This document shows, in pieces, positions 8,919 through 20,430 of a DNA stretch of 64,000 nt. The DNA comes from Gammaproteobacteria bacterium 54_18_T64 (GTDB lineage Bacteria > Pseudomonadota > Gammaproteobacteria > Pseudomonadales > Porticoccaceae): the NCBI GenBank assembly GCA_002162825.1, contig MAAU01000091.1:1-64000 (forward strand). The letters run 5' to 3'. The notes beneath the pieces are model-generated. The model ran no database searches and had not been told where the DNA came from. It worked only from the letters and a program-made list of their open reading frames with translations. Each line of letters starts with the position of its first letter. Position 1 is the first letter of the stretch. The position numbers were made by a program, and so were the translations under genes.

Positions 8919-9779
8919 GTGGCTAAGATATTGTTGCTGGGTTGTGGCGGCCTTGGCCGCCGCTTGGCCGCGCGTTTAATCGCCGCCAAACACTCGGTTA
9001 TCGGCGTTAAACGCAGCCCCCTAAATGAGCCCCTTGCCGGTCTACAGCTGGTACTGGCCGATATAAACTGCGCACACGACGTTGCCCAAATTCCGACAGC
9101 GGTCGATCTGGTTTTATTTGTACTGTCCCCCGGTGAGCGCAATAAAGAGGCCTATCAAGACCTTTATCAAGGGGGCATCGCCAATGTACTGGCGCATTTT
9201 TCCCAGGCCACGGGCCGGGGTCCAGGACCTCGTTGTTTGATGGTGTCATCAACCAGTGTTTATGGGCAAAATGCGGGGCAATGGGTGGACGAGACGTCCC
9301 CGGCCCTGGCGACTAGTTTTAACGGCGAGGCCCTGATCGGGGCTGAGCAACAGTTGTGGGCCTACAGCGACACAAGTACGGTGGTGCGATTTAGCGGGAT
9401 TTATGGTCCGGGTCGAGAGAGCTTGCTGCGTCGCGTGCGAGAGAGTAAACCGCTGCAATACGACCCGCCCTCTTACAGCAATCGCATTCATGAAGAGGAT
9501 TGCCTGGGCATACTCGGCTTTTTAATTGACCGAGCCGTGCGGGGTTTACCCTTGGAAAAGCTGTATTTGGCTTCCGATAGTGCCCCCGTGCCACTGGCAG
9601 AAGTCGCCACGTGGTTGAGTGAAAAAATGGCCTGTAGCCCGCCGCCGGAAAAGACCAGTACTGCTTTGACGGGAGCTATGAATAAGCGTTGCCGCAATGA
9701 CCGCCTACTGAACCTTGGCTATGTATTGCGCTACCCTACTTATCGGCAGGGCTATGGGGAGTTACTTCAAGAGCTTTAG
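8919..9779 (+). CDS. NAD(P)-binding SDR-like (YeeZ-type epimerase/dehydratase family) protein
   Basis: An atypical extended SDR of about 286 residues. The nucleotide loop GCGGLGRR lies at residues 8-15, with SSTSVYG and FSGIYGPGRESL further on, as in the YeeZ group. The usual YxxxK pair is not evident, so catalysis is uncertain. The GTG at 8919 puts the glycine loop at the expected distance and has AGGCGG upstream; the TTG at 8859 would add 20 unconserved residues. It follows mpl and overlaps the next, convergent gene by four bases. Confidence 0.75.
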   Translation: MAKILLLGCGGLGRRLAARLIAAKHSVIGVKRSPLNEPLAGLQLVLADINCAHDVAQIPTAVDLVLFVLSPGERNKEAYQDLYQGGIANVLAHFSQATGRGPGPRCLMVSSTSVYGQNAGQWVDETSPALATSFNGEALIGAEQQLWAYSDTSTVVRFSGIYGPGRESLLRRVRESKPLQYDPPSYSNRIHEEDCLGILGFLIDRAVRGLPLEKLYLASDSAPVPLAEVATWLSEKMACSPPPEKTSTALTGAMNKRCRNDRLLNLGYVLRYPTYRQGYGELLQEL

Positions 9780-11446
9780 TTCAGGTCCTTGTGGGCGCTG
9801 TTGTTGACCCATTCACAGCAGGCATCGATGGGAATGGGCTTGGAAATAAAATAACCCTGGGCCAAATCACAGCCCAGGAATTGTAGCTTATCCCAAATGT
9901 CTTGAGTTTCTATGCCTTCGGCAACGGAGGTCATCTTCAGCTCTTTGGCTAATAAAATACAGATTTTGACAATCGACAGGGCTTCGTCGTCCTCCAGCAT
10001 TCTCATCACAAAGTGCTGGTCAATTTTGAGTTCGGTGAAGGGTGCCTGATAAAGCTGCACCAGCGATGAATAGCCGGTGCCAAAATCGTCAATGGACAGG
10101 GAGAAACCCTTCATTCGCAGTCTATTGAGAATGTCGAGGGAATCGGATACCGATTTCAGTATCGCCGTTTCGGTGAGCTCTATGGTGATGGCCCCGGGTG
10201 GTATGCCCTTGGTCGATGCCAGCTTGGCGAAGCGTTCTGGCATCGACAGGTCGAGTAAATCCTTGGCCGAGATGTTAATGGAAATAACGGGGTCAATACC
10301 GGCATTGTGAAAGGTTAAATAGTCCTCGGTGGCGAGCCTGAAAACTTCGTTGGTGAGGTCTGAAATCAAATCGTTCTGCTCGGCCATGGCAATAAACTGA
10401 TCGGGGAAAATCAGGCCCAGCTCGGGGTGCTGGAGGCGAACGAGAGCTTCAAAGCCAATGATTTTCGAACTCTTCATGTCCAGCTTGGGCTGATAGAAAA
10501 GTTGCAGTTGCTTGCTGGTAATGGCCGTTTTCAACTGTTGTAGAGAAAGTACGGGCTTGGTGCTTATACTTTGTGGGCGTTGGCTTTGGTGTTGTGTGAG
10601 AGCTACCCTAACTTCGGTATGCAACTGGCTGATGTAGTGGATAAACTTTTTGGTGTTAATTGGTTTGCTGAGCTTATTGGCAACGCGGATATTCTTGGCG
10701 TCGGCAAATTGCTTGGCGGAGTGCAATACACGCTCGTCAAAGCCGCTGACCAGGATATAGGTTGGCATGCAGGCCTTGTCGTAGAGGGTGCGCATCACCT
10801 CGATACCGTCCATGTCGGGCATGTTGAGGTCGAGTAAAATAATATCGGTATTGGCAATGGGCTGCTCGACAAAATGGTTGGCCGAAGTAAAACCGGTGGC
10901 CGATAGCCCGGCGATATTGGTCATTTCCACCATCAAGTCGACATGCTGCTGTTCGTCATCGACGATATAAATATTCACTGCCTGGGTGGCGCTCAGGGCT
11001 TCGGCGCAGGACAGAGCTTCTTCAATCTGAAGGCTCAGGGCGGGGTTGACCGTCGTAAAATTGTTTTCCTGTGCTTTAAAATGTGCGATTAGGCAGTCTT
11101 TGAGAAAAAGAATAAACTCCGCTATGGAGGCGCTACTAAAAGAACGCGAATGAAAATCAAGTTGCAAGGTCTGTAAAATTTCAGCCTGGGTGACACGCGC
11201 AGCTTCAAGCGAGGGATGGTTCATGGCATGCATAGCTTTCTCTTCACGCCGGAAGTACGAGGCCGTGTACACGATGAGATCGCGTGCCTGCGCGAGTAAC
11301 TGGGCGCTATCTACACCCTGTTCTACAGCGAGGTGAGCCTGGTAAATTAGACCCAATAACTCTTGGTGTTCGTTATCAATGGCGGCGACGCCAGTATTTA
11401 AGTTACTTGCCCAGGGCCCGGTTACACGGATCGCTTTAGCGGGCAT
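9776..11446 (-). CDS. Hemerythrin-like / receiver / EAL c-di-GMP phosphodiesterase response regulator
   Basis: A 556-residue cytoplasmic output protein. Residues 1-130 resemble bacteriohemerythrin (AAIDNEHQELL, FRREEKAM, AHFKAQE), but several iron-ligand histidines are replaced. Residues 157-275 are a receiver domain with VDDE, phospho-acceptor Asp206 (LLDLNMPDMDG) and Lys261. Residues 300-550 are an EAL domain with FEALVRL, ELTE, IDDFGTGYSS, LKID and EGIE, so it should be an active c-di-GMP phosphodiesterase. Its start overlaps the end of the upstream histidine kinase by 11 bases, so the kinase is the likely phosphodonor. Confidence 0.88.
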   Translation of the reverse strand: MPAKAIRVTGPWASNLNTGVAAIDNEHQELLGLIYQAHLAVEQGVDSAQLLAQARDLIVYTASYFRREEKAMHAMNHPSLEAARVTQAEILQTLQLDFHSRSFSSASIAEFILFLKDCLIAHFKAQENNFTTVNPALSLQIEEALSCAEALSATQAVNIYIVDDEQQHVDLMVEMTNIAGLSATGFTSANHFVEQPIANTDIILLDLNMPDMDGIEVMRTLYDKACMPTYILVSGFDERVLHSAKQFADAKNIRVANKLSKPINTKKFIHYISQLHTEVRVALTQHQSQRPQSISTKPVLSLQQLKTAITSKQLQLFYQPKLDMKSSKIIGFEALVRLQHPELGLIFPDQFIAMAEQNDLISDLTNEVFRLATEDYLTFHNAGIDPVISINISAKDLLDLSMPERFAKLASTKGIPPGAITIELTETAILKSVSDSLDILNRLRMKGFSLSIDDFGTGYSSLVQLYQAPFTELKIDQHFVMRMLEDDEALSIVKICILLAKELKMTSVAEGIETQDIWDKLQFLGCDLAQGYFISKPIPIDACCEWVNNSAHKDLN

Positions 11447-14400
11447 GAGCTCGCACCTCTAGTAGGCTGGCGACGCTGTTGAGAAGCTCTGTTGAGCGAA
11501 AGGGTTTACGTAAAATATTGTTATGCAATAGCTCTTGATCCTCTTCCAGGGTTTGTTCACCACTGTAGCCACTGGCCAATTGTATTTTGATATGGGGGTA
11601 TTTCTGTTTGACGACCTTCGCCAGGTCGTAGCCGTTCATCTGCGGCATAATAATATCGCTGATCATCAAGTCGACAGGCTCACGTGCCAGTATCTTCAAG
11701 GCTGAGTCAGCATTGTCGGCGACCCAGACCTGATAGCCGGCGATGGTGAGTATTTCCTGAGTCAAGTTACGCAGCCCCGGCTCATCATCGACGATAAGAA
11801 TTTTTTCGGCATTGCTCGGTACCTGCAGTTTTGCTTTATTTTCGACACTCTGGGGCACCAGCGTACCCTCGTAGCGGGGGAAGAAGAGGGAGAACTTACT
11901 GCCCTGGCCGACTGTAGACTGCACTCGTATGGTACCACCGCAGCGATCCATAAAGCTGTAGGCCTGACTCAAGCCCAGACCCGTGCCATTACTGCCCTTG
12001 GTGGTGAAAAAGGGGTCAAAAATTTGGCTGTGCAAGGCTTCTTCAATACCGCAGCCATTGTCCTCGATACTCAATTCCATATAGTCGCCATCGGCAAGAC
12101 CCAGGGCGCGAGCCTCGGCAAAGGAGAAGCTGCGCTTGTCAGTTGCCACGCTGAGTACCCCGCCGTTGGGCATGGCGTGTCTGGCGTTAATGGCTAGATT
12201 TAATAGTATTTCCTCCAGCTCATTGGGGTTGAGCCAGACCAGCCAGGGGGATTCACAGAGCTGGTATTCGAGTTTAATCACCGCGGTGATGGATTTGCCG
12301 AGTAGAGCGCTCTGGGTGTTGAGAACGCTGTGCAGGGCAATTGCCTCGGGTGCGGAGCTGCGGTGTTTGGAGAAGGCGAGCATGCGTTGGGTCAAGTCGC
12401 GGCCGCGCTCGCCGGCCAGGGATATTTGCTCAATATATTTATCGAGGCCGACAATATCCTTATATTTGATGGCTATTAAATCTGCATAACCGAGAATAAC
12501 CCCGAGGGTATTATTGTAATCGTGGGCGAGGCCACCGACGATTTGCCCCAGTGCATCCATTTTTTGGGTGCGCTGCAGGTGCTCCTGTTGTTGTCTTGTC
12601 TGCGTTAGATCGTTGCAGGAGCCGATAAAGCGGCGGCTGCCATCGGCTGCTGGAGGCAGCTCGGCGGCGGTAACTTGTAGTGGAAAGGTACTGCGGTCTT
12701 TACGCTGTCCGGTGATCTCGCGAAGCCCGTCGAAGACATCGGCTTCGCCGTCTCTGACTAGGTGCTTGAGGTATTGATCAGCTCGGTCGATGTCAAAATG
12801 CGGCATGATGGTGCACAGGTCTTTCTGGTTGAGGTCTTCACTAGTGTAGCCAAAGATTTTCTCAGCTGCCGGGTTGATGCTGAGGATGAAGCCCTTCTCG
12901 TCAATAGTAATAATGCCTTCAACCAGTGTGTTGAGAATTTCCCGTTGCTCTTGTTCCTTGGCAATCAGGGCTTGCTTGGCCTCGTGCTCGGCGCTGACAT
13001 CGAGTACCTGGGATGTCACGCCGACGACTTTGCCGGTGGGGTCAACAATGGCACTGTTATGCCATTCACAAAGAATGCTGCGACCATCTTTGGTGATATT
13101 TTGATTGGTGTTTATCTTGCCACCCCTGTGCTGGAGAAGATTACCCCTGACGCTATCTACTTCGGCGGCAAGGGCGCTGGGGACGATGATGCTGGCATCG
13201 CAGCCGATGGCCTCCTCAGCGGAGTAGCCAAAAAGTCGGGTGGCGGCGTCATTCCAGCCGAGGATTTTAAGATCGGTACTCCACTCAATGGTTGCCAGTG
13301 GTGTTTGTTCTCGATAAAGCTGCACCTGTTGCAGCGAGGCATTGAGCTCCTCCTCGGCTTTTTTCCGTTCACTGATATCGTGGCCCTCGGCGAGTAATTG
13401 CATCACCTGGCCGTTCTCGTCGAATACCGGATGGACGCTGAACTGCACCCAGGAGAATTGTCCCGCTCTGGTCCCCACCAGAATATCGCGACTCACTTGC
13501 TCACCTGCCGCCGCGTGCTTGCAGTCTGCTGCAATGGTCTTTTGCAGCTCGGCTGAGTGGCTAAACCAGGGGCACTCCCAAAGTTTATTGTCGGCGACAT
13601 CGGCAAAGCTTATTCCCGACATTTTTAAGGGCGTGTTGTTGATAAAAATAATATTGCCATCGGGTGCCATGATGACGGCCATGGCCTGCATATCGTTAAA
13701 CAGACCCTCTATTTGTCGTTGTATATTCCGTGCCGCCTGGCGCAATTGATATTCCTGGGTGACGTCATTGAAGACCAGGATCATGCCAATAATATCGTCA
13801 TTGCTATCGCGAATCGGAGCGGCGGAATCCGCTATCTGGTGCTCCTTGCCGTCTCTGGCCACGAGGGTGGTGTGGTGGCTCAAGAACACGGTTTGCCCCG
13901 TATTGAGTACCCTGTCGATGGGATTGGCAATGGGCGCGCGGCTAGTGGCATCAATAATGGGGAATATTTCCGCCAGCGGCAGTCCCCTGGCTTCATAGGC
14001 GTACCAGCCGGTGAGTTGCTCCGCGACGGGGTTCATGCGCGTAACCAGCCCGCTGGCATCGGTGGTGACAACAGCGTCGCCGATGGACTGCAGGGTGACT
14101 TCGAGATTCTCCTGTTGCGTGTTGAGGTCGCGGACCGTGTGGGCGACCTTGTTACTCATGGTATTGAGGGCCTGGTTGAGCGCGGCAATTTCACCCAGAT
14201 ACAGCTCGGGGTTTTGCAGGCCCGAATAATCCTGGGCGAGTTGCTGGGAGAATTCGAGTAGTTTGACCAGGGGGCGGGTGATCAAACGCTCCAGTACCAG
14301 GGCCAGTCCAAGTACCAGTAGAGAGGTGATTATCCAGGTGGCCTGGTAATCGTTGCGCACCTGTTGCCACAGTGCCGCTTTGCTGGCGCTCAAATCAATA

Positions 14401-14894
14401 GAACCGAAGAGCAGAGCTGGCTGGGCCGCGATGGGCTCTGCGGAGGGCGTGCCGGTTGCCAGCGTTATATAGGCCTGCAGAGATTGGCCGTCGGCGGCAA
14501 GATTGATGCTGGAACCATTGGCGCCGAACAGGACCTGCGGGCCTGTGGTGAAATCGGGCAGTGCCGTTTGTCGCGCTTGCTGACTGTTCGCAAAGCGATC
14601 TGCCAGCACTTGCCCGGAGGTGCTAATCAGTGCCAGCGCTTCAATGCTCGCATCAATATTGGCGGATTGCAGGAGACGCAGGGCATTGCTGACCCGCTCG
14701 GCGGCGGAGGTCCGGTATTCAATTTCTTGCTGCAGAAAACTCAGTAATTGTTGAACCCGCTCAGTGGCACTGTTTTCCAGGCGCTGCTCCGCCACTCGGT
14801 AGTCGTGGCGTGCAGAAAACAACAGGAAGGCACTGGCCATCAACAAGACAATGGCGGGCATGAGAATACGTAACTGAATTTTGGCTCGGGACAT
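11436..14894 (-). CDS. Membrane-bound PAS-rich hybrid sensor histidine kinase
   Basis: A 1152-residue inner-membrane sensor. A first membrane helix (residues 8-27) and a second (187-205) bracket a periplasmic domain of about 160 residues. A HAMP-like linker follows, then about four PAS domains (roughly 262-385, 395-510, 522-638, 650-765). The HisKA box GGLAHDYNN holds His791. ATPase motifs are NLAINARHAM, EDNGCGI and GTGLGLS, and a C-terminal receiver domain carries Asp1080 and Lys1130. It lacks a DNA-binding output. The overlapping downstream REC-EAL gene implies signalling to c-di-GMP turnover. The signal is unknown. Confidence 0.9.
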   Translation of the reverse strand: MSRAKIQLRILMPAIVLLMASAFLLFSARHDYRVAEQRLENSATERVQQLLSFLQQEIEYRTSAAERVSNALRLLQSANIDASIEALALISTSGQVLADRFANSQQARQTALPDFTTGPQVLFGANGSSINLAADGQSLQAYITLATGTPSAEPIAAQPALLFGSIDLSASKAALWQQVRNDYQATWIITSLLVLGLALVLERLITRPLVKLLEFSQQLAQDYSGLQNPELYLGEIAALNQALNTMSNKVAHTVRDLNTQQENLEVTLQSIGDAVVTTDASGLVTRMNPVAEQLTGWYAYEARGLPLAEIFPIIDATSRAPIANPIDRVLNTGQTVFLSHHTTLVARDGKEHQIADSAAPIRDSNDDIIGMILVFNDVTQEYQLRQAARNIQRQIEGLFNDMQAMAVIMAPDGNIIFINNTPLKMSGISFADVADNKLWECPWFSHSAELQKTIAADCKHAAAGEQVSRDILVGTRAGQFSWVQFSVHPVFDENGQVMQLLAEGHDISERKKAEEELNASLQQVQLYREQTPLATIEWSTDLKILGWNDAATRLFGYSAEEAIGCDASIIVPSALAAEVDSVRGNLLQHRGGKINTNQNITKDGRSILCEWHNSAIVDPTGKVVGVTSQVLDVSAEHEAKQALIAKEQEQREILNTLVEGIITIDEKGFILSINPAAEKIFGYTSEDLNQKDLCTIMPHFDIDRADQYLKHLVRDGEADVFDGLREITGQRKDRSTFPLQVTAAELPPAADGSRRFIGSCNDLTQTRQQQEHLQRTQKMDALGQIVGGLAHDYNNTLGVILGYADLIAIKYKDIVGLDKYIEQISLAGERGRDLTQRMLAFSKHRSSAPEAIALHSVLNTQSALLGKSITAVIKLEYQLCESPWLVWLNPNELEEILLNLAINARHAMPNGGVLSVATDKRSFSFAEARALGLADGDYMELSIEDNGCGIEEALHSQIFDPFFTTKGSNGTGLGLSQAYSFMDRCGGTIRVQSTVGQGSKFSLFFPRYEGTLVPQSVENKAKLQVPSNAEKILIVDDEPGLRNLTQEILTIAGYQVWVADNADSALKILAREPVDLMISDIIMPQMNGYDLAKVVKQKYPHIKIQLASGYSGEQTLEEDQELLHNNILRKPFRSTELLNSVASLLEVRAHAR

Positions 14895-16320: not shown

Positions 16321-19300
16321 TTATTGTTTTTCTTCATCGGAATCTTTTTGAGTCGATTTCCTGACGGTTTTTTTGCGCGGCTGCCGCGGCGGTGGGTTGT
16401 CCCATAGCTTGCCGGCCGAGAGGCATTGCCAACCCCATTTGATCCAGTTCAACAGGGCGAAAACCAGCCACATGGACCACAGCAACATGGTGAGGCGAAA
16501 GACCCACAGCGGCAGGCTAAAGACCCAGGCATTGGGCAGGCTATCGCTGCTGTGGTCTTGATACCACTGGTAGAGATAGGCACCGGAGCCATTGCCCGTT
16601 ATCTGCATGTTGGGTGAGGACAGCAGGCTTTGCGGGATGGTGAAAAACAGACTCAGCAGCGCCACCAGCGAGAGCCCAATTAAGCCTATTTGCATCAGGT
16701 TAAAGAGCTTTGATGGGGCGGCAGGGTTGTAGCGACGGCGGGCCTCCATGGCAAAAAACCAGGCGACAACGGGCAGGCTGCCGACCATGTTGACCGTGCT
16801 CATGCCGATGGCCAACAACAACCAATGCCAGGTTTTTAGAGGTATCGATAACTGCAGGTGCTGCACACAGGTGCCGAGAGCAATGGCGATGCCGATAATC
16901 ACCGCCAGTACACCCCAGTAGAGCATGGCGGGGCCGATGTCCGGACCACTGAGTAACAGGGGCCAGCGGCCTCGGGGTAGGTGAATTTTCAAATTGATAT
17001 TATTGGCCGCTGTTGGCAGCGTAAAACTCGGTGTCAGGGTGCGCAGGGAGATGCCGCTGGGCAGCTGCCATTTGAGGTCGATAGTTTGCAGGCCGGGGTG
17101 TAGGGGTATCACCACATATTGCTCTTTCCTGGGACGGGTTTGTTCGATGCCATCGATGTGCATACTCTGCAATTCACCACCGGGGGGCTGCTTAAAGCGG
17201 TAGTCGCCGCCGAGGCTGGTGCGGATTTTCAGCTTTAGCTCTACATCCGCATTGCGCTTGCCGGGTCTGTAGTCGAGGGCAATACTCTCAATGGTGGTGT
17301 TGGGGCCGGGTACGGGTTGGGGCTCTACGGCTTGCAGGCCGAGAGTCTCGCCGGGCCAGGGCCACCAGCGTTGGTTAGCCTGCCGAGTCGTCGCTTCAGC
17401 TTTCAGGTTGGGGATGCCCTCACCGGTGATATGCCAGCGCGGGGAGGCGACCACGGACCAGCGCTCGACCCACTGCGTAGTTTGGGGGGCACTTAAACTC
17501 AATTTTTCAGTGGGCTCAAGCACGGAGCGCCACTGTATTTGTCGCTGTTTGGATTTGAAAGATAGCACCACGTGGTGGTCTTCGATGAGCATATTTTGGC
17601 TCACCACCGATTCGCCGGGTAGCAGGGGGATGCGCAAATTGATACTGCCCTGTTGCGGGGCAATACGTCGCACAGTAGTGATTAACTCCCAGTCGACGTC
17701 GGCATTGAGCTGGCGCTCGACCCGCACAAAGGGTTCGATGGGCGCGGGTATCAAAGTGTCGGCAATAAGCTGCTTTTGCTCTTTTTCGAGCTCTACACTG
17801 CCGCCACTGACCCGGCCCTTATTTAAGCCGTGAACTCGCCAGCCCGGGGCCCTTACTCGGGTGTTGTGGGGTGACAGGGCAAAGGGGATGCTGATGTTGT
17901 CGCCATGGGCGAGGCCGCGCAACAGCACCTTATGAACTCCCGCTTCCAGTAGCACCCAGAGCTTGCCCTGATCCCGTGCCAGTGTTGCCGCGCGATTGTC
18001 GACGCTAATACTCTGTGCCTGCCAGCTTTTATCCAGTGGTAGGGGGAAGGCGATCTGAGTGGCCGCACTGGCGGTAAATTGCAGGCGCAAACGCTGTTGG
18101 TCGACCTTGATGTCGACGTTTTGCAGGGCCACACAGTGGGGTGCGCACAGCGGTGCCTTGAGTAGTTCTGCCTTGAGTTCCTGTAGTAGTTGAGCCGAGG
18201 GGAAGCCGTGACTTTGAGTAGAGCCTTGCACTGCTTGTTGGGCTTGAACCTGGGGCGTGTGTAGCCCGAGCCCGGCGAGTAGTAACAGTGCCGGTAATAG
18301 GCAGGAGGTGATGCCAGGCGGAAGGGTCGTTTCATCCCTGCGCCCAAACAGGCGGTGTTCGCGCAGCAGGGGTCCCGCCAGTCCGTAAAACAGCAGGGCG
18401 ACCAGGGCCACCTGTACAAATTTGAGCAGGCGAGTCAGCAGCGGTGGTGATAGATAGAGCTTGAGGGCTTCGCCGGCACTCACCGGGCCGCTCCAGCGAA
18501 TACTTATCTCCTGCCATTGCCAGTCGGGCTCACCGGGCCCGGTTTGGACATTGTCACTGGGGCGATAGCGCTTGCGCGCGAGCCTTTCTTCAAGCGCCGG
18601 CGCGGCGGCTGAATCCAAGATGTGCATGGCACCTGCTTCCTTGGCCTTGTTAACGCGGCTTTTGGCCAGCCTTGCCGGGGCTTGAGAATAGCCATAGTGG
18701 GAGGCATTGATGGCGCGATTTTGTTCCAGCTGGGGGTAGAGGCCACGGCGTATTTGCTGCACCGCAAAGGCGAGAATGAAAATCAGCAGGGCACTGAGAG
18801 CCAGGTAGGCGCAGCTGGTGATCAGTCGTTTGAACTTGCCGCTGGGTAAGACCTGCAAGAGCGGTAGCGCGGCGACGAGAATTACCCAGGCCACCAGTGG
18901 GGGGGCATTGGCCTCGTGATAGGTCAGAGCCAACGTGGCTGCGCCGACTAATGCCCAGCGCCAGCTCAGAGTGCGCAGCAGGGCGCCAACAATGAACAGG
19001 CAGATAAACAGATCCCATAAATCCCAGCGCGACAGCCAGGATTGTCGCACGCTGTCGGGGCCGCCGGCGTGCCACAGTTGCCATCCGGGGGGCAACTGTA
19101 GGGTGAGTTCGACAGTGTCGAAGTCGTGGAGCCAGCCATTGGCAGAAATTGCCGCCAGGGAGTCGATGCGGTTAATGGCTTCGACATCGACCTGAGACTG
19201 GCGGATTTCAATGCCGGCACCGGCCTCGTCGGCCATTTTTGTCACCAGCTGGGGTATGCCGTTGGCGACAACGCGGCCCAGTTGCAACTCCGGTGAGGTA

Positions 19301-20430
19301 TGCAGGCGCCAGCCGTGAGTCATGGTGCCGCGAATAATATCCTTGCTGGTGGCGCCAGCACCATCAAAATCGAGCCACAGGGTGCGTTGTAAACTGAGTC
19401 GGTTGGCGGCGGGACTGGCGTCGCCCCGGTATTGCTCCTGTAGCTCGAGACTGGCACCCGGGCTCATCAAAAAGGTGGGCAGTTTGGCGAAGCGCGGGGG
19501 GATGTCGATCTGCGCTGGGTCGATGGCCGGTAGCCCCACGGGCTTCACACCGCGTAGGTGGGGGGCGGCGCGGAAGCTCCAGACTTCCTGTGCCGGCCAG
19601 TCTTCATCCAACTTTGCCATGGTGAACTGGCTGGGTTGGTCGAGATAGCGGGCGCGCAGCCTGATCACCCATTGGCCGGCGCGGGCCTGTATTTTCAGGC
19701 GGCCATCGGCCTCGATACGGGCGGGCAGGGGCGACTCGAAATATAGGGCCTCGGCATTGCTGGGCAGCAATTGGCCGAGTGTGATTTCCCTGGGTTTGCC
19801 GGCGACGCTGAGGCGCAACTCTGTCTCCAGATGCATGGGGATGGCGTCATTGAGGGCGCGAAAGACGGTCAGTTTGATGGTGTTTTCGAGGTTCTTTTGC
19901 GCCGTGGCGCCATCCTGACTGCGCAGCCATAAGCGCCCCTGGGCGTCGATATTACTCTTGATTTCATGGCCCACATTACTCAGTTTAATGAGTGCAGTGT
20001 CTGTTGGCACCAGCAGATACTGCGGGGTTTTCTGCCAGTGCCAGCGGCCCTTAATCGTGTAGTTGCCGGCCTTTAGGTGCAAGGCCGGGTTGCCCTTAAA
20101 TTCAAGTACGGCCGCCGCTTTGTTGTTGACGGTCACGGACTGAGGCCAGTGCTTATTGTCACCGGGCAAGGTCAACCAGCTGTCGCTGAGTACCTGCCAC
20201 TGTTGTGAGAAGTCAGCGCCACGAGGATGTATATTGATCGTCAACTGGTCGGGCCAGACACAGCGTCGCTGCTCTATTTGTTGGGCTATTCTTGGGCAGG
20301 GGTGCTGTACCTGGTCACGTAATACCCAGGATTGCCACTGCGCCAGTTCGGGTGGGATCGTTTGTTCGCTGCCATGGCTGAGGGCTGTAGCGCAGAGCAG
20401 TAGCAGTGTGGCGAGCAGGCGCATAGACAT
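16321..20430 (-). CDS. Giant internally duplicated membrane protein, function unknown
   Basis: I do not recognise a named family for this 1369-residue protein. It has an N-terminal signal peptide (residues 1-20) and two homologous halves. Each half has a long beta-rich, presumably periplasmic region (about 25-465 and 735-1165) followed by a membrane bundle (about 472-560 plus 663-688, and 1169-1270 plus 1303-1332). Matching landmarks keep an offset of about 705-709: WPQSVTVNN/WQAQSISVDN, EVWSF/ERWSV and VELTLQLPPG/INLKIHLPRG. A second signal-like stretch with a VQA end (707-730) opens half two. The C-terminal tail is highly charged. The acyl-CoA dehydrogenase gene follows after 17 bases. Confidence 0.85.
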   Translation of the reverse strand: MSMRLLATLLLLCATALSHGSEQTIPPELAQWQSWVLRDQVQHPCPRIAQQIEQRRCVWPDQLTINIHPRGADFSQQWQVLSDSWLTLPGDNKHWPQSVTVNNKAAAVLEFKGNPALHLKAGNYTIKGRWHWQKTPQYLLVPTDTALIKLSNVGHEIKSNIDAQGRLWLRSQDGATAQKNLENTIKLTVFRALNDAIPMHLETELRLSVAGKPREITLGQLLPSNAEALYFESPLPARIEADGRLKIQARAGQWVIRLRARYLDQPSQFTMAKLDEDWPAQEVWSFRAAPHLRGVKPVGLPAIDPAQIDIPPRFAKLPTFLMSPGASLELQEQYRGDASPAANRLSLQRTLWLDFDGAGATSKDIIRGTMTHGWRLHTSPELQLGRVVANGIPQLVTKMADEAGAGIEIRQSQVDVEAINRIDSLAAISANGWLHDFDTVELTLQLPPGWQLWHAGGPDSVRQSWLSRWDLWDLFICLFIVGALLRTLSWRWALVGAATLALTYHEANAPPLVAWVILVAALPLLQVLPSGKFKRLITSCAYLALSALLIFILAFAVQQIRRGLYPQLEQNRAINASHYGYSQAPARLAKSRVNKAKEAGAMHILDSAAAPALEERLARKRYRPSDNVQTGPGEPDWQWQEISIRWSGPVSAGEALKLYLSPPLLTRLLKFVQVALVALLFYGLAGPLLREHRLFGRRDETTLPPGITSCLLPALLLLAGLGLHTPQVQAQQAVQGSTQSHGFPSAQLLQELKAELLKAPLCAPHCVALQNVDIKVDQQRLRLQFTASAATQIAFPLPLDKSWQAQSISVDNRAATLARDQGKLWVLLEAGVHKVLLRGLAHGDNISIPFALSPHNTRVRAPGWRVHGLNKGRVSGGSVELEKEQKQLIADTLIPAPIEPFVRVERQLNADVDWELITTVRRIAPQQGSINLRIPLLPGESVVSQNMLIEDHHVVLSFKSKQRQIQWRSVLEPTEKLSLSAPQTTQWVERWSVVASPRWHITGEGIPNLKAEATTRQANQRWWPWPGETLGLQAVEPQPVPGPNTTIESIALDYRPGKRNADVELKLKIRTSLGGDYRFKQPPGGELQSMHIDGIEQTRPRKEQYVVIPLHPGLQTIDLKWQLPSGISLRTLTPSFTLPTAANNINLKIHLPRGRWPLLLSGPDIGPAMLYWGVLAVIIGIAIALGTCVQHLQLSIPLKTWHWLLLAIGMSTVNMVGSLPVVAWFFAMEARRRYNPAAPSKLFNLMQIGLIGLSLVALLSLFFTIPQSLLSSPNMQITGNGSGAYLYQWYQDHSSDSLPNAWVFSLPLWVFRLTMLLWSMWLVFALLNWIKWGWQCLSAGKLWDNPPPRQPRKKTVRKSTQKDSDEEKQ

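Follow-up and report, generated by a model that had tools for sequence, protein, structure and literature searches.

The window analysed here is a 64,000-nucleotide stretch of contig MAAU01000091.1 from Gammaproteobacteria bacterium 54_18_T64, which carries on its minus strand an open reading frame (P0001; 16321..20430, stop codon included) encoding a membrane protein of 1369 residues with matches in 17 of 58 relatives. A preliminary description of this DNA had presented the protein as an internal duplication of unrecognised architecture, opening its second half with a signal-like stretch that ends in VQA, as if two secreted proteins had been fused. The reading frame, its length and its strand are as described there, and the duplication was borne out by alignment of family profiles. 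We report the anatomy of the protein, a signal-peptidase-type site conserved between its halves, and a reading in which the single gene would yield two membrane proteins.

Internal duplication of the protein

Compared on the window sequence alone, the two halves were marginally similar: BLASTP run without composition statistics gave an expect value (E) of 0.003–0.006, and HHalign on single sequences a probability of 2.9%. With 17-sequence profiles, HHalign returned an E of 8.4e-12 across 426 columns, and with profiles of 88 distinct full-length members, window protein included (85 of them retained for half 1), residues 53–565 aligned with 762–1270 over 477 columns at a probability of 99.3% and an E of 5e-20; the real pair scored 173.4, versus 14.4–25.2 for one reversed and 15 column-shuffled control templates. 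Measured as a span, this alignment exceeds the 500 residues that the preliminary description had foreseen (513 residues of half 1), whereas its aligned columns fall just below that figure. Eight family-conserved positions coincide between the halves, and all are identical (C57/C766, G122/G831, R191/R906, E282/E989, W284/W991, G357/G1057, G457/G1162 and W469/W1172), with about three coincidences expected by chance. These results confirm that the internal duplication is real.

Taken domain by domain, the three beta domains of each half (D1, D2 and D3) aligned between halves with E values of 2.1e-12, 2.5e-7 and 2.7e-6, respectively, and D1 aligned with D3 inside half 2 at 3e-8 (HHalign, without shuffled controls). 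This kinship within half 2 would suggest that a beta domain was duplicated first and the unit containing it later, so the duplication looks nested at the level of sequence profiles. The membrane bundles aligned alone did not reach significance (probability 9.5%, E 0.0034), and the case for duplication of the bundles therefore rests on colinearity and equal topology. Three of the four landmark pairs that had been proposed at an offset of 705–709 hold, the profile alignment placing residues 95, 105, 282, 290, 440 and 450 opposite 803, 814, 989, 997, 1145 and 1155, within one residue of the proposed positions; the fourth (655–690 and 1297–1332) lies outside the significant alignment with an offset of 642, because the loop preceding the last helix is ~110 residues long in half 1 and ~42 in half 2.

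Read along the minus strand, half 1 opens with an N-terminal signal peptide (residues ~1–22; 20365..20430), recognised by its hydrophobic N-terminus and in the family average. It continues with D1 (~55–170; 19921..20268), D2 (~185–280; 19591..19878) and D3 (~336–456; 19063..19425), drawn from the strands of a structure model in which D3 resembles the N-terminal domain of M1 aminopeptidases (M1-N-like). Membrane helices 1–4 (~471–564; 18739..19020) were placed by hydropathy and predicted helices, with helix 2 (~490–505) taken from the structure model rather than from the hydropathy cut-off. A long loop, predicted to be periplasmic (566–661; 18448..18735), leads to helix 5 (~663–691; 18358..18444; family-averaged hydropathy and model); the last two strands of this loop pack on D3 in the model, and the D3 alignment extends to model residue 641. 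Between the halves lies the putative internal signal peptide (18241..18357), composed of a basic n-region (692–706), a hydrophobic core (707–725) and the VQA site. Half 2 comprises D1 (~764–887; 17770..18141; M1-N-like in the model), D2 (~900–994; 17449..17733; model and D2–D2 alignment), D3 (~1043–1160; 16951..17304; also M1-N-like in the model) and five membrane helices (~1168–1338; 16417..16929; family-averaged hydropathy and model).

One structure model was made per half, each from a six-sequence alignment, and in these low-confidence models both halves follow one order, three beta domains and then five helices, in line with the beta-rich region and membrane bundle that had been claimed for each. 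We compared the charges of the loops as means over 119 rows, for all but the short one that links helices 2 and 3 in half 2. Six inside loops and tails carry 1.7–3.5 Lys+Arg versus 0.1–1.1 Asp+Glu, the stretch preceding the second core 3.2 versus 0.8, and two outside loops 0.1 versus 1.2 and 1.6 versus 2.9. For most loops, these values fit a topology with five helices in each half, the beta part outside and the C-terminus inside. Such a topology puts residues 692–706 inside and the VQA site outside, with the second core spanning outward between them, as in a signal peptide.

A probable internal signal peptide and a natural two-gene split

Behind the second core, 80 of 88 members (81 on recount) carry a strict site of the signal-peptidase-I type (small residue at −3, Ala at −1, Pro disallowed at +1), versus 12–28 of 88 behind eight other helices. 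Among 31 further members, which were not used in forming the idea, it is present in 28, versus 2–6 behind the other helices, and the three members lacking it have LQA or VQA nearby. When Leu, Ile or Cys was also permitted at −3 and the searched range was broadened, a site was found in 118 of all 119 rows, 103 of 119 also having Pro or Gly at −4 to −7, versus 11–60 of 119 elsewhere. The second core itself varies in sequence and length while the site stays. A Met precedes this core in 21 of the 119 members, so internal initiation is no general alternative. The signal-like stretch noted at the opening of half 2 is thus upheld by a site kept across the family.

In one genome, G444, the two halves occur as separate genes. 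The half 1 gene (L171, 5443–7584) encodes 713 residues from its Met and stops just past the last helix, and the half 2 gene (L172, 5852–7909; 685 residues) has its own start codon, GGAGAAA ahead of it and its own signal peptide. They lie on separate contigs (20.1 and 15.3 kb), each gene flanked on both sides by other open reading frames. Together with the conserved site, these half genes support the earlier impression of two fused secreted proteins.

From the observed duplication, conserved site, topology signal and one natural split, we infer, with a probability of roughly 0.6, that the gene product is a precursor bearing two signal peptides, from which signal peptidase I releases two inner-membrane proteins that are paralogous and act as a pair. 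The first signal peptide would send half 1 across the inner membrane, leaving three beta domains outside and five helices ending inside; the basic stretch would then remain inside, the second hydrophobic core would bring the signal peptidase I site outside, and half 2 would be exported likewise. Signal peptidase I would most likely cut after about residue 730, giving two five-helix proteins made one to one, and these products would pair. Their beta arms are envisaged as non-catalytic M1-N-like sandwiches, as in Ost1/ribophorin I, which would serve as a scaffold by binding or positioning a partner or substrate in the periplasm. Should cleavage take place at the internal signal, the family would constitute a widespread bacterial polyprotein with two paralogous products in fixed ratio, and such genes would be better annotated as two proteins than as one.

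Several observations weigh against a cleaved precursor. The site counts are not independent events, the members being related and most of the 31 coming from one genome family (f78); the strict rule is rough, recovering N-terminal signals in only 56 of 88 members; and under the wider rule helix 1 reaches 60 of 119. The structure models are weak (mean predicted local distance difference test score (pLDDT) 54 and 60, predicted template modelling score 0.34 and 0.29 for halves 1 and 2, respectively), the charges of the long half 1 loop balance (12.6 Lys+Arg versus 11.9 Asp+Glu) and favour neither side, and no neighbouring gene is conserved, the commonest cluster occurring in 7 of 60 stretches at scattered positions. 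A fused gene could also work uncut.

This last point defines the main rival, an uncut eleven-helix protein in which 707–725 is a permanent membrane helix that merely brings the chain back outside. Its halves would pair within the chain as a pseudo-dimer, an arrangement shared by many duplicated transporters. Duplication is frequent among membrane proteins. We consider this explanation possible, though doubtful. The topology demands exactly such a helix at 707–725, 8 of 88 members and 3 of the 31 further ones lack the strict site, and the fused form dominates, the split having been found in one genome only, itself a draft of 360 contigs. Nor does a lenient site rule single out this helix, since it accepts the internal stretch in 87 of 88 members but other helices in 38–88 of 88, without discrimination. 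For a plain helix, however, nothing would explain why small-x-Ala is retained behind it so much more frequently than behind eight other helices, or why its core is so variable, and the two G444 genes, if used, must work as two chains.

Distribution, partial matches and neighbourhood

The gene is present in single copy in the window genome (2.28 Mb, 98 contigs, 83% complete). A contig scan with the window protein alone gave five close relatives (three Porticoccaceae, one Pseudomonadales and one unclassified gammaproteobacterium), whose affiliations point to Pseudomonadota as the phylum. At a threshold of E ≤ 0.001, and in genome samples that overlap with one another and with the 58 relatives, family matches were counted for the order (37 of 390 genomes), the class (38 of 274), the phylum (25 of 299), the G444 family (33 of 42) and the G710 class (19 of 48). 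Complete members are open frames of ~1,310–1,500 residues, with one longer through an upstream frame; a fusion partner considered in G546 (L069, 2060-residue frame) was rejected, since inspection by eye suggested that the added upstream length is spurious, the sequence being rich in GC. Viral contigs gave no family match and plasmids gave one, annotated 'hypothetical protein', on pAZKH of Azoarcus sp. KH32C. On this 738-kb plasmid (NC_020548.1 448951–453045; L219), the family gene overlaps an isoaspartyl peptidase/L-asparaginase gene by 4 bases.

The window protein had no match at E ≤ 0.1 in Pfam, NCBIfam, PHROG or PADLOC, and 36 diverse members gave scattered weak matches only against Pfam and NCBIfam; for these libraries, the view that the protein belongs to no named family stands. 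DUF2846 was hit in 5 of 17 members (best E 6.3e-5), in 2 of the 36-member set, from which most close relatives of the window were left out (best E 0.082), and in 1 of 33 half 2 sequences, and we judged it a short shared beta motif or chance. A sequence search of solved structures gave no match at E ≤ 1, and the literature matches listed included no title evidently concerned with this protein, which goes by no searchable name. A large conserved protein of 38 of the 274 sampled class genomes is without a family name in the libraries searched.

Twenty partial-match stretches were fetched, of which two (G801, G833) held the full frame and 18 were examined. Most of these met a contig end or a frame shift, two were short remnants (L185, L189), and G444 accounted for two stretches; no clean split besides G444 was found among the genomes searched. 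Partial matches in G967, G973, G978, G979, G981 and G798 were judged by match coordinates only. Family genes broken by frame shifts, through assembly error or decay, were observed at G126:C126, G440:C193, G643:C212 and G590:C164, and the one at G979:C11:798044-803322 is seemingly interrupted by ~1.1 kb near profile position 470–486, possibly by an insertion element.

Single-half homologues were sought with the half 2 profile only (E ≤ 0.01), which matched 39 of 274 class genomes, three of them new: G418 (E 3.4e-4), G450 (E 0.0015) and G530 (E 0.0017). The G530 match was judged false, the protein matching glycosyltransferase family 9. The G418 and G450 proteins were not matched by half 1 and could be remote relatives of D3. 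The G418 gene (G418:C99; L302:250-5934) encodes a weakly D3-like exported protein of 1025 residues with a signal peptide, beta-like repeats and C-terminal hydrophobic stretches, and adjoins an 869-residue frame without a Pfam match at E ≤ 1. In G450 (G450:C216; L303:1512-4842), a 639-residue frame, exported, beta-rich and weakly like half 2 D3, directly precedes a CreD-family gene; the two could possibly form a two-gene system of similar plan.

The neighbourhood survey covered 60 stretches (59 plus the window), in 57 of which the gene was recognised, using open reading frames of at least 80 residues linked by BLASTP. The adjacent gene lies on the same strand upstream in 32 and downstream in 31 of the 57. 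Same-strand neighbours within 100 bases and of at least 100 residues numbered 17 upstream and 13 downstream (window excluded), and the Pfam annotation of these 30 showed no recurrent family among those listed, 25 out of 39 (HAD 3, FGE-sulfatase 2, Peptidase_M23 2). Of the 38 genomes that carry the family, 19 encode an exosortase (PF09721), versus 73 of the 236 that do not (Fisher p 0.026, uncorrected for kinship or test choice); exosortase was rejected as an obligate partner since half of the family genomes are without PF09721. Neighbourhood and exosortase co-occurrence name no pathway. The window genome itself encodes an exosortase (G000:C4:12208-12960; PF09721, E 7.9e-72). Elsewhere in the window (9776–14894, minus strand), a hemerythrin-receiver-EAL protein stands beside a hybrid kinase with several PAS domains, the pair being an apparent oxygen- or redox-sensing module of cyclic diguanylate signalling.

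Fold relatives and comparison with known systems

In VIA-align comparisons of the models, D3 of half 1 (model pLDDT 54) matched the F3 factor 3q7j with a Z of 10.5 (root-mean-square deviation (rmsd) 3.0, 139 aligned), and D1 of half 2 (model pLDDT 60) matched PepN 4pw4 with a Z of 9.8 (rmsd 2.8, 120 aligned); D3 of half 2 gave a Z of 8.8 to 8ez2 (rmsd 2.7, 115 aligned). In the models, D1 and D3 of each half resemble the fold of the M1 aminopeptidase N-domain (PF17900), which we take as a lead; PF17900 was not reported in Pfam scans of 17 and 36 members. The architecture first called unrecognised is without a family in the libraries searched, whereas the fold of D1 and D3 can tentatively be recognised, on weak models, as the M1 N-domain type.

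That the protein is a diverged, duplicated CreD-like inner-membrane protein appears very improbable. CreD (PF06123) has the same general plan of a periplasmic part and a C-terminal helix bundle, and the CreD-family protein of L303 shows a single helix at the N-terminus, then a polar region, and five hydrophobic stretches towards the C-terminus, its gene (PF06123, E 5.2e-16) standing directly behind the weak half 2 D3 relative (L303 1512–3428). CreD differs, however, in being a single unit (open frames of 449–489 residues), neither half of the family protein aligns to a five-protein CreD profile (probability ≤ 0.5%), and PF06123 was not reported in the Pfam scans of 17 and 36 members. Least credible of all is a membrane-bound peptidase related to M1 aminopeptidases, to which the fold of D1 and D3 and a weak match (probability 43%, E 2.5e-4) between the D3 profile of half 2 and an alignment of 29 M1 enzymes would point, but the matching N-terminal domain of these enzymes is non-catalytic, half 1 has no profile match to the same alignment (probability 0.2%), and HExxH occurs in 1 of 119 members, so that the zinc motif is not conserved, unlike in an M1 aminopeptidase.

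Foldseek returned ribophorin I/Ost1 chains of the eukaryotic oligosaccharyltransferase as the best matches of the half 2 model (8b6l_O, E 3.5e-7; 6s7o_E, E 5.1e-7). Ost1 has two M1-N-like beta-sandwiches in tandem outside the membrane, followed by membrane anchoring, a plan that the weak models would tentatively suggest for the family protein too. The match across both domains is poor (6ezn_A, 242 aligned, rmsd 22.7; 22–23 overall), the domains fitting singly, and whole-model template modelling scores for the oligosaccharyltransferase matches to rank 8 were 0.14–0.18. PF04597, which we take to be the Ribophorin I/Ost1 family, was absent from the Pfam families reported for 17 members (E ≤ 1), 36 members (E ≤ 0.1) and 33 half 2 sequences (E ≤ 1). 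The family protein further differs from Ost1 in its extra D2 domain and in the doubling of the entire unit. It is modelled with five helices per half, whereas Ost1 has a single membrane helix according to the Ost1 passages of PMC7226087, which make no mention of aminopeptidases.

A bolder extension of the precursor reading, which we regard as unlikely, is that internal-signal cutting in this Pseudomonadota-wide family gives a matched paralogous pair whose Ost1-like beta arms keep a periplasmic substrate, either peptide or glycan, in place, so that in plan it would be the bacterial equivalent of the ribophorin scaffold. If a membrane scaffold in bacteria does carry M1-N-like domains in tandem, this might, speculatively, offer a lead on the origin of the Ost1 plan.

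Neither a paper on FbcH processing nor a bacterial polyprotein of the proposed kind was among the matches listed in a limited literature search, and we know of no broadly kept gene that joins internal-signal cutting and duplication with paralogous products. In Bradyrhizobium, signal peptidase cleaves FbcH, the cytochrome b/c1 precursor, at an internal signal, which yields two membrane proteins. The proposed precursor would share this plan of one gene and two products, with the difference that the products of FbcH are mutually unrelated, whereas those of the family described here would be paralogous.

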